In this document: one piece after another, positions 51,652 through 56,877 of the stretch | Layout of the letters: each line of letters starts with the position of its first letter | How positions within the stretch are numbered: the stretch's first letter is position 1 | Assembly: GCA_017963125.1 (NCBI GenBank) | Contig: JAGCUA010000069.1 | Span: 151,723 to 215,722, forward strand | Reading direction: 5' to 3' | From: a bacterium | GTDB taxonomy: Bacteria; UBP6; UBA1177 | Length of the DNA: 64,000 bases | Notes under the pieces: generated by a model | Seen by the model: only the letters and a program-made list of their open reading frames with translations | What the model was told of the DNA's origin: nothing | The model's database searches: none | Position numbers and translations under genes: made by a program

Positions 51652-52914
51652 TTGGCAAAACTTCTTTTCATAAACCCGTTTGTCGAAGATTTCACGGCAT
51701 ACAACCTCTGGGCGGCTCCGCTCGGGCTTTTCAGGATCATAGAACACCACGAAAATATCGGTGACAGCGTGACTTATCTCGATTTTCTGGACGGAAGTTT
51801 TGTCGGCGACGATGCGGCGACTCCGCCGGTTTACCGCTCATGGGAACGCCACACCTACTGGAAGCGCGAAATCGAAAAACCTGAGTGTTTAAAGATGATT
51901 CCGCGCAAATACTACCGTTTTGGAGCGAACGACGACACTGTGCGGAAAGCGCTTTTGGAAATTGAAAAACCCGATATCGTCTATATTTCGACCGGAATGA
52001 CCTACTGGTACAAATGCGTTCTGAAAATGATCGCTTTTGTCCGGGAAATTTTCGGCGAAGTTGAAATAAATGTCGGCGGAATCTCGGCGATCCTGATGCC
52101 TGAATTTTTTGAGGGAAAAAATGTCACCGTAAACACAGGTAAAGCGCAAATCCCTGAAAATATTACTGGAACAGGCATGCGTTATCTTAAAAACATGCAC
52201 TTTTTTCCGGCAAATCTTATCGAAGGATGCCCCAATCGCTGTCCTTACTGCTCAAGCGTCATTTTCAACCCGAAAGTTTCCTACAAAGATGTTGCAGTTC
52301 TTGCCGAAAACCTTGAAAAATGGCACACCGAAACCGGGCACTGCGATGTCGCGTTCTACGATGACGCCCTGCTTCTGCGAAACGGAGGGATCCTCCGCGA
52401 TTTCCTCGACAGACTTCCTTCAAATGTTTACCGATTTCACACCCCGAACGGCCTTCATCTGCGTGAAATCAATGAAGATCTGTGCAAATATCTTGAAAAA
52501 TACGACTTTCCTCAGCTCCGTTTCGGCTTCGAAACCGCCTTTTCGCGCTACGAAGACAAAACCTCGCTGAACCAGCTGAAATCTGTTGTCAAAATGCTGA
52601 AGGAACACGGTTTTACAAGTGAAAGAATCGGTGTTTACCTTCTCTGCGGGCTTCCGGGACAGACCGTCGATGAAGTCGATAAAACCATTGAAATCGTTTC
52701 TGAAATTGGCGCAAGGCCTTATCTCAACGAATATTCGCCGGTTCCGAAAACAACTCTTTTTGAGGAACATTTCAAGGAAAGCAGACTCGATTTCAAACGC
52801 GAGCCGCTTTACCAGAACAATTCCGTTTCAGCGTGGAGAAGCCCTGTTTTTACTCCGGAAGTCGTGAAAAAACTCAAGGACAAACTTACGAAAATTTATT
52901 CGGGACCTGCCTAA
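51652..52914 (+). CDS. B12-binding-type radical SAM protein
   Basis: The 420-residue protein starts at TTG 51652 with AGGG upstream. The first 180 residues form a Rossmann-like domain in the place of the cobalamin-binding domain. The radical SAM cluster Cys residues are Cys193, Cys197 and Cys200 in EGCPNRCPYC. Later come the SAM-domain elements FGFETAFSRYEDKTS and VYLLCGLPGQTVDEV. Enzymes of this type use a 4Fe-4S cluster and SAM to modify natural products, lipids or tRNA. The substrate is unknown. The 3' end overlaps the convergent XRE gene by 29 bases. Confidence 0.9.
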   Translation: MAKLLFINPFVEDFTAYNLWAAPLGLFRIIEHHENIGDSVTYLDFLDGSFVGDDAATPPVYRSWERHTYWKREIEKPECLKMIPRKYYRFGANDDTVRKALLEIEKPDIVYISTGMTYWYKCVLKMIAFVREIFGEVEINVGGISAILMPEFFEGKNVTVNTGKAQIPENITGTGMRYLKNMHFFPANLIEGCPNRCPYCSSVIFNPKVSYKDVAVLAENLEKWHTETGHCDVAFYDDALLLRNGGILRDFLDRLPSNVYRFHTPNGLHLREINEDLCKYLEKYDFPQLRFGFETAFSRYEDKTSLNQLKSVVKMLKEHGFTSERIGVYLLCGLPGQTVDEVDKTIEIVSEIGARPYLNEYSPVPKTTLFEEHFKESRLDFKREPLYQNNSVSAWRSPVFTPEVVKKLKDKLTKIYSGPA

Positions 52915-53137
52915 CTGCAGGTTCTGCTGCCTCAAAATCGAACAGATCTTTTAACGGAAGTTCCAAAGCGAAAGAAATTTTTTCGATTGCATCGATTGAA
53001 ATATTGCGTTTTCCGCATTCTACCGTGCTGATGTATTCGCGCCCGAGACCCGATTTGAAAGCAAGGTCGTTCTGAGTCATTCCCTGCTGTTTCCGAAGAA
53101 ACAAAATGCGTTTTCCAAGCTGTTCCCGCGCGTTCAT
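52886..53137 (-). CDS. XRE-family helix-turn-helix regulator
   Basis: The 83-residue protein has the Cro/C1 helix-turn-helix: LGKRILFLRKQQGMTQNDLAFKSGLGREYISTVECGKRNISIDAIEKI. It starts at ATG 53137, 13 bases after the DinD stop; a frame to 53182 would overlap DinD and has a poorly spaced AGGAG. The ribosome site is weak, so translation may depend on coupling with dinD. It is the only plausible local regulator of the DinD-RNA ligase region. Confidence 0.82.
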   Translation of the reverse strand: MNAREQLGKRILFLRKQQGMTQNDLAFKSGLGREYISTVECGKRNISIDAIEKISFALELPLKDLFDFEAAEPAVRQVPNKFS

Positions 53138-53150
53138 GGAAAGCAAAAAA

Positions 53151-53987
53151 CTATTTTTTCTCCTCAATTTTTTTCTTTTCATGCTCCTTTTCGATCTGTT
53201 TCACGCTTTTTTCAGGTGTAGGCAGATCTTCAGGCATCGTGCCGCCAAGTTCAGAGATCGTCTGACGGACTTTTTTGCCGACTTCAAAGTGGGTTTTGTT
53301 TGCTTCTTCTTTGCCTTGAATGTGCTCTCTGCGGAGTTTTTCCTCTGCTTGAGTAGCTCGAAAAAGATTCGCTGCAAGTTCAGTGCTGCCCATATAATCA
53401 AGGATATTCTGATTCTTGCCGAGTCCTTTGCGTTCTCTGATGTCCTGAGCTTTCAAACCGCCGTATAAGCCCATATAGCCGCAGTTCTGGAAAATCGCAT
53501 AGTCAAGCGGCTTGTCAATTCCTGCGTTGTGTGCAGCATCCGCCAAAGCCGTGTTATGACGCTTCATCTCGTTTCTGATGGCGATGCGTTTCTGCTCTTC
53601 CGTAAGCCGTTCGTAATCGTCAATAAGTTCCTGCTGACGCGTCTTTACTGCGAAATAGGTTTGCCCAAGAGCGATGACTTCCTTGCGAGGATCGCCGTTC
53701 ATTACGATAAGGTAGCAGGCATAACGCGAAAGCATAAAATCTTCGATGATGCGAGTTCCACCATTCGGCATTTCCGATGATTTGTTGAGGTCAACAAAAC
53801 ATTCGTCAACAGACTGTCCGGCTCCATTGCAGGCCTCTTTCGCACGATCAATAACCTTTGTGAAATTCCTCCATTCGGTATATTCAAGAACTTTCTGCAG
53901 CTCCCTTGCATACCAGAATTCCTGCCCGAATTCGTTGATGTGTTTGATGTTTTCAAACAAATTTTCGTCGTACTTCACAAGATCCAT
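53151..53987 (-). CDS. dinD: DNA damage-inducible protein D (DinD-like)
   Basis: Start ATG 53987 (GGAGAG 7 bases upstream) gives 278 residues. The N-terminal BRO-N-like domain reads FWYARELQKVLEYTEWRNFTKVIDRAKEAC and includes GGTRIIEDFMLSRYACYLIVMNGDP; the rest matches DinD in RNEMKRHNTALADAAHNAGI and GLKAQDIRERKGLG. E. coli DinD is SOS-induced and inhibits RecA filaments. No LexA box is evident to me here, but the local LexA consensus is unknown. The end is a Glu/Lys coil (KQIEKEHEKKKIEEKK). Confidence 0.9.
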   Translation of the reverse strand: MDLVKYDENLFENIKHINEFGQEFWYARELQKVLEYTEWRNFTKVIDRAKEACNGAGQSVDECFVDLNKSSEMPNGGTRIIEDFMLSRYACYLIVMNGDPRKEVIALGQTYFAVKTRQQELIDDYERLTEEQKRIAIRNEMKRHNTALADAAHNAGIDKPLDYAIFQNCGYMGLYGGLKAQDIRERKGLGKNQNILDYMGSTELAANLFRATQAEEKLRREHIQGKEEANKTHFEVGKKVRQTISELGGTMPEDLPTPEKSVKQIEKEHEKKKIEEKK

Positions 53988-54141
53988 TTTTTCTCTCCAT
54001 TTTGTTAAGACAACAAGCATTTCTTAATCTTAGAATCGAATACTTTAAAATAAAATAAACAAAAAACTTTACAACAATAACTATTTCAAGAATATTAGTC
54101 AATAAAAAGTTGATATATATCAAAAATTAACAAAATATTAT

Positions 54142-54169
54142 TTGACTTTTCATTCCTTTAGCATATATT
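54142..54169 (+). promoter_or_regulatory. Promoter of the RNA ligase gene
   Basis: TTGACT (54142-54147) and TATATT (54164-54169) are 16 bases apart in a very AT-rich divergent region (54000-54170), about 33 bases before ATG 54202. Confidence 0.55.
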
Positions 54170-54201
54170 TATGTCGGCTGTTTGATAAAATTGGAGGGAA
54201 A

Positions 54202-55245
54202 ATGAGAAAATTAGCGAGTGTTCAGCGGGTCTGGAAGATTGAACCGATTGAAGGAGCCGATAAAATCGAGCTTGCACACGTTCTCGGCTGGCAGTGCGTC
54301 GTGAACAAAGGGCAGTTCCAGCCGATGGATACAGGTGTTTACTTTGAAATTGACTGCTTTCTTCCGGTTACTCCGCGCTTTGAGTTCATGCGGGCAACGA
54401 GCTACAAGAAAAGTGACATCATGGGAGAAGGTTTCAAGCTGAGAACTATGCGCTTCCGCGGTGAAATTTCGCAGGGTCTCCTACTTCCGCTGTCGCAGTT
54501 TCCTGAAATTCCTGCCGATACAGAAATAGGAACCGATGTCACCGAACTTTTAGGCATCAGAAAATGGGAAATTGAGGAGCGCGCAACTACCGGCGGAACA
54601 GTTATAGGCAATCTGCCGCATGACATTCCGCATACCGATGAGACCCGTGTACAGGAAATGCCGGAGCTGATCCAGGCTTTCGCCGGACTTGAATACTATA
54701 TTTCAACCAAAATGGACGGTTCTTCGCATTCCATCGGCATTGATGAGGATGGTTTTCACGTCACCGGCCACAATTTTGAGTACAAGGATGACGGTACAAG
54801 TTCATTTTACGAGCTGGTAAAAGCGCGCGGATACCGCGAAAAGATCGAAAACTTTGCAAAAGAGCATAATCTGACAACATTCACGATTCAGGGCGAGCTC
54901 TGTGCACCGGGAATTCAGCGCAACAGGCTGCGTCTCGCAAGACCGGAGTGGTATGTCTTCACGATCCGTGAAAACGGCAAAAGAGTCGGATTGAAGCGGA
55001 TGCTCGAAATCTGCGACTCTCTCGGAATGGATCATGTTCCTATTGAAGAAGTCGGCATGGATCTACCGTCAAAATATCCGACAGTCGAAGCACTTCTTAT
55101 CCGCGCAGACGGTGATTATCCGAAAGGCGGCAAAAAGGAAGGAATTGTCGTCCGTCCGACAGACCCGGTATTTTCGCCGCTTATCAGCGCGAGTCTTTCA
55201 ATGAAAATTGTCAGCAACAAGTATCTGCTGAAGAATGAGGAATAG
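54202..55245 (+). CDS. ATP-dependent RNA ligase (Rnl5/DraRnl-like)
   Basis: Start ATG 54202 with GGAGGG upstream gives 347 residues. The N-terminal 110 residues look like the OB-type domain of Deinococcus RNA ligase (LASVQRVWKIEPIEGADKIELAHVLGW, VYFEIDCFLP). The nucleotidyl transferase domain follows, with motif I Lys170-Met-Asp-Gly, motif IIIa-like FTIQGELCAPGIQRN, motif IV EGIVVRP and motif V SMKIVSNKYL. It would seal RNA nicks with ATP. Its own promoter and its place among stress genes suggest an RNA-repair role. Confidence 0.9.
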   Translation: MRKLASVQRVWKIEPIEGADKIELAHVLGWQCVVNKGQFQPMDTGVYFEIDCFLPVTPRFEFMRATSYKKSDIMGEGFKLRTMRFRGEISQGLLLPLSQFPEIPADTEIGTDVTELLGIRKWEIEERATTGGTVIGNLPHDIPHTDETRVQEMPELIQAFAGLEYYISTKMDGSSHSIGIDEDGFHVTGHNFEYKDDGTSSFYELVKARGYREKIENFAKEHNLTTFTIQGELCAPGIQRNRLRLARPEWYVFTIRENGKRVGLKRMLEICDSLGMDHVPIEEVGMDLPSKYPTVEALLIRADGDYPKGGKKEGIVVRPTDPVFSPLISASLSMKIVSNKYLLKNEE

Positions 55246-55260
55246 GACAGCAAAATGATG

Positions 55261-55289
55261 TTGACATCTTGTTACTCCGGCTATAATAT
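55261..55289 (+). promoter_or_regulatory. Promoter of the toxin-antitoxin pair
   Basis: TTGACA (55261-55266) is followed by TATAAT at 55282-55287 (15-base spacer) or TAATAT at 55284-55289 (17-base spacer). It begins 15 bases after the RNA ligase stop, so the pair can be transcribed on its own. Confidence 0.6.
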
Positions 55290-55333
55290 TAACAGTTTTT
55301 GCTATTGTGAGAACTTTTAGTATGGAGCCGACA

Positions 55334-55990
55334 ATGAGAGATGTGGATGATTTCGCGAAATTTTTCATTAAAAACGGAGCTGATTCCGTGCCGAACACCT
55401 ATGACGGCAATATGAAGCTACAAAAATTGCTGGTACTCTCAAATCTGGCAAGTATCTCAGAATTCGGCGAGCCATTGTTCAACAATGAAATCCTGATTTT
55501 CGAGAACGGCTGTGTTATCGAAAAGGTAAGGTTGCGTTATAAAAATGATTATTCAGGCTTCAAACGGGACAGTATGGATTTCCAGCCTGATTTTTCGGAG
55601 CATGAAACCTATATTCTTAATTTGATTATGAATATCTTCGGAACAGCTTCTGCAAGAGAACTTTCGGAAATAAACCACACTTTTGATTTTTGGAAAAAAG
55701 CGCTGAACAACGGCACGAATAATTACGGCTTTCATGACAAAAACTCATCTGTGGTAGACATGATGTCGCAAAATGAAGACATCAAAAGAATGAAGGAAGT
55801 TATTTCTGCATATAAAGAATCTTCCGCAGATGATTTCAAAAAAGAGATAATAAACGGCGTTACTTATTATTTTGGCAAGGATTTTGAAATTACAGATGAA
55901 ATTCTCTCAAAGCTGGAAAAGTTTGCTTTATCCGCCGAAGACAATTCCTATACTGTTTATTTTGATAACGGAAATCTGGTTATTTACTAA
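55334..55990 (+). CDS. Panacea-domain (DUF4065) antitoxin
   Basis: Start ATG 55334 has GGAG six bases upstream and gives 218 residues; GTG 55307 lacks a ribosome site. The N-terminal 140 residues fit the Panacea/SocA-like domain, with MKLQKLLVLSNLASISEFGEPLFNNEILIFENGCV and ARELSEINHTFDFWKKALN. A C-terminal part follows. Panacea antitoxins neutralise many unrelated toxins through the same domain. The gene is joined to the next by a TAATG 1-base overlap, as expected for a toxin-antitoxin operon. Confidence 0.82.
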   Translation: MRDVDDFAKFFIKNGADSVPNTYDGNMKLQKLLVLSNLASISEFGEPLFNNEILIFENGCVIEKVRLRYKNDYSGFKRDSMDFQPDFSEHETYILNLIMNIFGTASARELSEINHTFDFWKKALNNGTNNYGFHDKNSSVVDMMSQNEDIKRMKEVISAYKESSADDFKKEIINGVTYYFGKDFEITDEILSKLEKFALSAEDNSYTVYFDNGNLVIY

Positions 55991-56328
55991 TGGATTTTGC
56001 TGCAGGACAAGGAATTTTAGGGAGAATCCGTTTCGCAGACGGAAACATGCCAGAGTACGACCGAACCTATCTGATTACAGCAGCCACCGATGATTATCTT
56101 GAAGTTTTGAACGTCTCAAGCATAAAAGGAAAAGAACGAAAATTGTTTTTTCCTTCAAATGAAAGGCTGAAAATTTACCATCCGCCTTTTGCAAAACCTT
56201 CTTTCGTAAAACTGGATTCGTTGACTAAAGTTTACAAAACTGACTGGAATCAGTTGAAAATCCTTTGTGGCGGAAGAACCTTAGACAAGAACGAGTTTGC
56301 AAGAATCCTGAATTTGTTGCAACAATAA
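55990..56328 (+). CDS. Probable toxin of the Panacea pair (MazF/PemK-like in outline)
   Basis: The 112-residue protein starts at the ATG overlapping the antitoxin stop by one base (TAATG). It begins with a strand and turn, GQGILGRIRFADGNMPEYDRTYLIT, similar in outline to MazF/PemK-type beta-barrel toxins, and continues with Lys-rich strands (VSSIKGKERKLFFPSNERLK) and a short helical end. No sequence motif proves the activity. The toxin call rests mainly on its size and strict coupling to the antitoxin gene. Confidence 0.7.
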   Translation: MDFAAGQGILGRIRFADGNMPEYDRTYLITAATDDYLEVLNVSSIKGKERKLFFPSNERLKIYHPPFAKPSFVKLDSLTKVYKTDWNQLKILCGGRTLDKNEFARILNLLQQ

Positions 56329-56391
56329 TTTACTCTGAATCAGTTTTCAGCACAGAAACAAATGTATAAGGAGCTTGTTTCACCTTGGATA

Positions 56392-56877
56392 TTACGCCAT
56401 ATAGACGTCTGTTATCATTATCGGTTCTACTGGAACATCATCGTAGATTTTTACAGACTGGGTCGCTACTTCTGAAATAGCGTCAACGACATCCATTCCT
56501 TCGATTACTTTTCCGAAAGCGGCATACTGGCCGTCAAGGAAGTCGCAGTCTGTGTTGCAGATGAAGAACTGGCTTGATGCACTGTTGGGATCGGAAGTTC
56601 TTGCCATCGAAATGACATATTTTTTGTGAAGGACTTCGGAGCTTCTTTCGAGTTTGATCGGATCGAGCAGGGCCGCTTTTTCCATCATGAACTTGTTCAT
56701 TCCGCCGCCCTGGATCATGAAATCCTTGATGACTCTGTGGAAAATAAGTTTGTTGTAGTATTTCGCTTCGATGTGTTTGATGAAATTTGCGACGGTTATC
56801 GGCATTTCGTTGCCGTAAAGTTCGATGACCATCTTTCCTTTTGTCGTTTCGATGACTGCCTTGTTCGTTGCTTCCAT
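56392..56877 (-). CDS. Cyclophilin-type peptidyl-prolyl cis-trans isomerase
   Basis: Start ATG 56877 with GGAGG upstream gives 161 residues without signal peptide. The cyclophilin signature is clear: GKMVIELYGNEMPITVANFIKHIE, the FHRVIKDFMIQGG active-site strand, SASSQFFICN and GQYAAFGKVIEGMDVVD. The enzyme speeds up Xaa-Pro bond rotation during protein folding in the cytoplasm. Confidence 0.96.
   Translation of the reverse strand: MEATNKAVIETTKGKMVIELYGNEMPITVANFIKHIEAKYYNKLIFHRVIKDFMIQGGGMNKFMMEKAALLDPIKLERSSEVLHKKYVISMARTSDPNSASSQFFICNTDCDFLDGQYAAFGKVIEGMDVVDAISEVATQSVKIYDDVPVEPIMITDVYMA

Follow-up and report, generated by a model that had tools for sequence, protein, structure and literature searches.

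A Panacea antitoxin gene overlaps the gene for a diverged, predicted MazF-superfamily toxin in a bacterium of the UBP6 lineage

The window analyzed here, a 64,000-nucleotide stretch of contig JAGCUA010000069.1, contains an overlapping gene pair, panA and panT (Table 1). Based on sequence comparisons and structure predictions, we consider with a probability of approximately 0.8 that this pair belongs to the PanAT kind of type II toxin-antitoxin modules, in which PanT would be a diverged MazF-superfamily endoribonuclease that is bound by PanA, probably via the C-terminal domain of PanA. In the mechanism that we propose, PanT when released would cut RNA and thereby stop translation, while PanA would bind PanT directly, with the specific neutralizing contact probably made by a small C-terminal beta-beta-alpha-beta-beta domain. 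The globular Panacea core would be common and exchangeable and may act as a scaffold or sensor, as proposed by Ernits et al. (PMC10440598), and translational coupling at the junction of the two genes would keep antitoxin synthesis ahead of toxin synthesis. The biological role of the module may be addiction or phage exclusion.

Table 1. Features of the panAT locus and its surroundings in the window
Feature	Positions	Strand	Basis
Probable promoter TTGACA-17-TAATAT	55261..55289	+	Consensus scan; G024 match starts here
panA antitoxin gene, 218 aa	55334..55990	+	SocA_Panacea 4e-10; phrog_1281 2.4e-27; AF2 pLDDT 88.6
Panacea domain, Pfam-matched stretch	55418..55696	+	Pfam
C-terminal beta-beta-alpha-beta-beta domain of PanA, probable neutralizing element	55826..55987	+	AF2; domain swap; tail-only search
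panT, predicted toxin gene (112 aa) for a diverged MazF/PemK-superfamily protein	55990..56328	+	PDB profile match; AF2; Foldseek; phrog_13386
Arg25 codon (residue aligns with the MazF catalytic Arg)	56062..56064	+	Alignment
Insertion relative to congeners G016, G021, and G023 (HTH, BRO-N, and RNA ligase-like genes and panAT)	52906..56389	.	Junction comparison

panA extends from the ATG at 55334 to the TAA at 55990 and panT from the ATG at 55990 to the TAA at 56328; the junction reads TAATG, in agreement with the one-base overlap given in a preliminary description of the locus. We used ATG 55334 as the panA start because PanA relatives begin with MRDV or MKDV, and a GGAG sits 6 bases upstream of this codon. 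The preliminary description had also named the first gene as a Panacea antitoxin, and this was confirmed by a match of PanA to the Pfam model PF13274 (SocA_Panacea) with an E value of 4e-10 and a score of 41 bits, above the cut-off of 25.7. PanA also matched phrog_1281, a PHROGs family with no functional name, at 2.4e-27. Using Pfam and NCBIfam, the antitoxin matched Panacea only, and no MazE-type antitoxin was found in the pair.

The two genes had further been placed under one promoter. A probable -35/-10 pair at 55261-55289 makes this plausible, and the homology of the locus in the congener G024 to the window starts precisely at its TTGACA; the upstream TTGACA is also retained in L002. The part of the claim that did not stand out is the motif itself, which is not clearly rarer than chance, with 6 matches of the TTGACA/TAATAT type in the window versus 3.5 ± 2.1 expected. 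We note that other copies (L009-L015) have a small hairpin ~25-50 bases upstream of panA, between a TTTTGGG and the ribosome-binding site and followed by a T-rich stretch. Three of its seven pairs are altered on both sides, i.e., by compensatory changes, and the hairpin is possibly a leader or an operator; it was not seen in the window copy.

As a single sequence, PanT had no match in Pfam, NCBIfam, or PADLOC and returned just designed repeat proteins and weak noise from the PDB; among the PHROGs, it matched phrog_13386 (function unknown) at 6.2e-30. Relatives were gathered by alignment-based scans and genome searches, giving 27 distinct PanT sequences with the window copy included. The first collection scans with the single PanT protein had found no relative, while alignment queries did find them, and a plasmid search gave no match. 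A profile of 16 PanT relatives (A2), run against all PDB sequences, gave eight matches at E ≤ 10, all of which were MazF/PemK/EndoA, with a best E value of 2.7e-4; the best MazF match covered profile positions 3-98, i.e., nearly the full length. A broader profile (A4) matched MazF in the PDB at 0.0047 with some designed-repeat noise, hhalign of the PanT family against a small MazF alignment gave a probability of 66.8, and the PanT profile also picked a canonical MazF in genome G298 (E value of 1.6e-6). The Pfam model PemK_toxin reached at best 0.0088, in 3 of 20 family members, which is below its cut-off.

The AlphaFold2 model of PanT had a mean pLDDT of 94.6; the Mammaliicoccus phage row was omitted from the alignments used for structure prediction. 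In a Foldseek search of the PDB with this model, the top 50 matches were all MazF/EndoA/PemK, with a probability of 1.00, TM-scores of 0.55-0.71, and identities of 9-17%. Because the profile searches of the PDB, the AlphaFold2 model, and Foldseek all point to the MazF family, we assign PanT, by prediction, to the MazF superfamily, as a protein too diverged for single-sequence models. Since the matches from structure and from family-wide profiles are MazF-type, readings of PanT as Fic/Doc, HEPN, RelE, or a membrane toxin were set aside. The preliminary description had seen a MazF/PemK-like beginning of the partner, and the likeness turned out to span the whole protein; the HMM and structure comparisons that it had proposed for the 112-residue protein gave a MazF-type result and no clear match to a non-toxin family, with the Panacea domain present in the antitoxin. 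Its suggestion of a new Panacea-associated toxin type is unsupported at the fold level, because PanT is predicted to be of the MazF superfamily and because PanA pairs with MazF/PemK-like toxins are already described (PMC8832971).

Identity to the window PanT was 64-68% in rumen Lachnospiraceae and Ruminococcaceae MAGs, 33-61% in viral contigs, 35% in Mammaliicoccus prophages, and ~19% in the most distant relative; Halobacillus also carries a relative. All 27 distinct PanTs, across phyla, are encoded directly behind a Panacea ORF, frequently with a one-base overlap. Among rumen clostridial copies with measurable dS, the dN/dS of PanT was 0.04-0.12, and both panA and panT are under purifying selection in rumen clostridia. 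This constant position of the homologues together with the low dN/dS establishes the partner ORF as a real gene. One further candidate, L030, was rejected as a chance match. Separately, phrog_13386 also matched in Methanocaldococcus jannaschii, a control genome, and the toxin family may therefore reach archaea.

Within the genus, three genomes have the PanA lineage of the window, and the copy in the window itself is intact. In G026, panA is intact while the toxin frame has no start codon and contains an in-frame TGA; in G024, panA is intact and ~9 toxin codons are left. Decay of this kind, in which the second gene is lost and the first is retained, is expected of a toxin-antitoxin pair and supports panA as the antitoxin gene and panT as the toxin gene. 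That just one of the three copies is intact would also fit a relic, or a host-domesticated pair, without present function in the window. We regard this as very unlikely, given that in the window both frames, their overlap, the promoter, and the residues conserved in the family are all intact and that purifying selection acts on both genes in relatives.

The catalytic residues of MazF are Arg25 and Thr48 (B. subtilis numbering) (PMC7354611). Arg25 of PanT aligns with the former, and this position is Arg in 25 of the 27 members and His in 2, namely, L021 and L054. Thr48 aligns with PanT position 46, where the 27 members have K, R, A, N, E, or T; therefore, the family has no conserved catalytic Thr, and PanT activity may need other residues. 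All 27 sequences share Ser43, Lys48, Lys51, Pro66, and Asp76, and Ser44 is near-invariant, with Ser43 and Ser44 standing 2-3 residues before the Thr48-aligned column. Judging from the alignment, another conserved PanT residue may have replaced the catalytic Thr. Because the Thr is not conserved, PanT might alternatively have a MazF fold without being an RNase and bind RNA or a translation component, or use another active site. The variable Thr position and the invariant residues specific to the PanT family are compatible with this alternative, which we nevertheless consider quite unlikely, since the catalytic Arg is kept in nearly all members, M. tuberculosis MazF relatives are also variable at catalytic positions (PMC7354611), and the MazF-like PanTs of Kurata et al. 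2022 specifically inhibit protein synthesis (PMC8832971).

The AlphaFold2 model of PanA (pLDDT of 88.6) has a helical Panacea core to residue ~164, followed by strands at 168-173 and 176-181, a helix at 188-200, and strands at 205-211 and 214-217; we took about residues 165-218 as the tail. Foldseek with the whole PanA model found no PDB match at E ≤ 0.001, and a match to the ToxR periplasmic domain was unusable (E value of 0.99 over 60 columns). A scan with the tail only found 11 viral contigs, all 11 with a PanT-family toxin downstream, of which 5 had been missed by the toxin search. The DNA of two viral contigs, L022 and L025, is mostly 90-100% identical over 1.9 kb up to PanA residue ~153, and beyond this breakpoint the proteins diverge: the Panacea core before it is 95% identical, the tail 51%, and the toxin 43%. 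Tail and toxin were therefore exchanged jointly on a retained core; the swap represents one mosaic junction, and everything further downstream differs as well. These comparisons suggest that the PanA tail moves along with the toxin and is specific to its pair, and the tail probably neutralizes PanT. The genome that contains the window has a second PanA of 160 aa without the C-terminal tail (G000:C85, L006:1420-2306); the ORF behind it is a different one with likeness to PemK and scores 18.1 bits versus the Pfam cut-off of 23.1. Similarly short PanAs are present in several congeners (L104-L106 and L109).

Alternatively, the Panacea core itself could neutralize PanT, leaving the C-terminal domain for another task, e.g., dimerization or operator binding. 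Direct neutralization by the core is known for B. choladocola PanA (PMC10440598), and the distant L054 PanA also has no tail yet is paired with a PanT-family toxin. Moreover, in a mirror-tree test, core and tail distances correlated equally with toxin distance and the tail was not separated from the core. We consider neutralization by the core to be somewhat unlikely, however, because L022 and L025 have a nearly common core with differing tails and toxins and because the tail-only search always finds the PanT family alongside the tail. Combining neutralization by the tail with the active-site alignment, we tentatively propose, at slightly less than even odds, that PanT represents a separate branch of MazF, absent from curated libraries, whose active site has been rebuilt such that Arg is kept and Thr is replaced by invariant Ser/Lys, and that it is checked by a new folded C-terminal PanA domain exchanged as a cassette with the toxin.

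In L094, L095, and L097, which are without the insertion, the counterparts of window positions 52903-52905 and 56390-56392 are joined, and panAT thus lies within an insertion of ~3.5 kb. The G+C content of the pair is 0.37 versus 0.45 for the window. The HTH gene of the insertion (52886-53182, minus strand) has a counterpart with 88% DNA identity directly downstream of the decayed panAT in G026 (L100:3391-3596); by this comparison, the HTH gene and panAT look as if they were one mobile unit with permuted order. The BRO-N and RNA-ligase/PHA02142-like genes at 53151-55245 form a block that occurs elsewhere in G021 and G024, with panAT not adjoining. The closest relatives outside the genus are from gut and rumen clostridia, which would fit transfer within a gut community. 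Phage-borne copies are located behind lysis genes, where lysogenic cargo is usually found: in L027 these genes encode an amidase and a holin, in L025 a lysin resembling glycoside hydrolases, and in Mammaliicoccus phage phi6228 a protein annotated as endolysin. The panAT module would move horizontally, in many cases carried behind the lysis genes of prophages; in the window it sits within a chromosomal insertion.

PanA paired with MazF-like toxins has already been published (Kurata et al. 2022; Ernits et al. 2023). In the part of Kurata et al. covered here, the PanATs of P. moraviensis and B. ruminantium likewise have a Panacea antitoxin beside a small, CDD-negative EndoA/PemK/MazF-like toxin, and these pairs are toxic, neutralized, and inhibit protein synthesis (PMC8832971). 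They are likened to the window pair by description, and their toxins may or may not belong to the PanT family; the covered text makes no mention of the C-terminal beta-beta-alpha-beta-beta domain present in the window PanA. MazEF/PemIK systems, such as those with the MazF of B. subtilis and S. aureus, have in common with panAT the toxin fold, the catalytic Arg position, and a small operon with the antitoxin first; they differ in that the window antitoxin is Panacea rather than MazE/PemI and in that the window PanT is without the conserved catalytic Thr. The NetFlax PanAs with Phd-C, ZBD, or PAD1, domains that block toxins in these multidomain PanAs, likewise combine a Panacea core with a partner-specific domain (Ernits et al. 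2023, PMC10440598), whereas the domain added in the window PanA is the C-terminal beta-beta-alpha-beta-beta domain, for which the PDB gave no usable match. Because the comparison with the two examples of Kurata et al. is by description, the PanT family may already have a cluster number in that work. As far as seen, the PanT family assignment, the altered active site, and the co-exchange of tail and toxin are new.

With this assignment, phrog_13386 and phrog_1281 gain a likely identity as a MazF-like toxin and a Panacea antitoxin, respectively. The L022/L025 pair amounts to a domain swap performed by nature, and it bears on the unsettled question of how a single antitoxin domain can serve many toxins.
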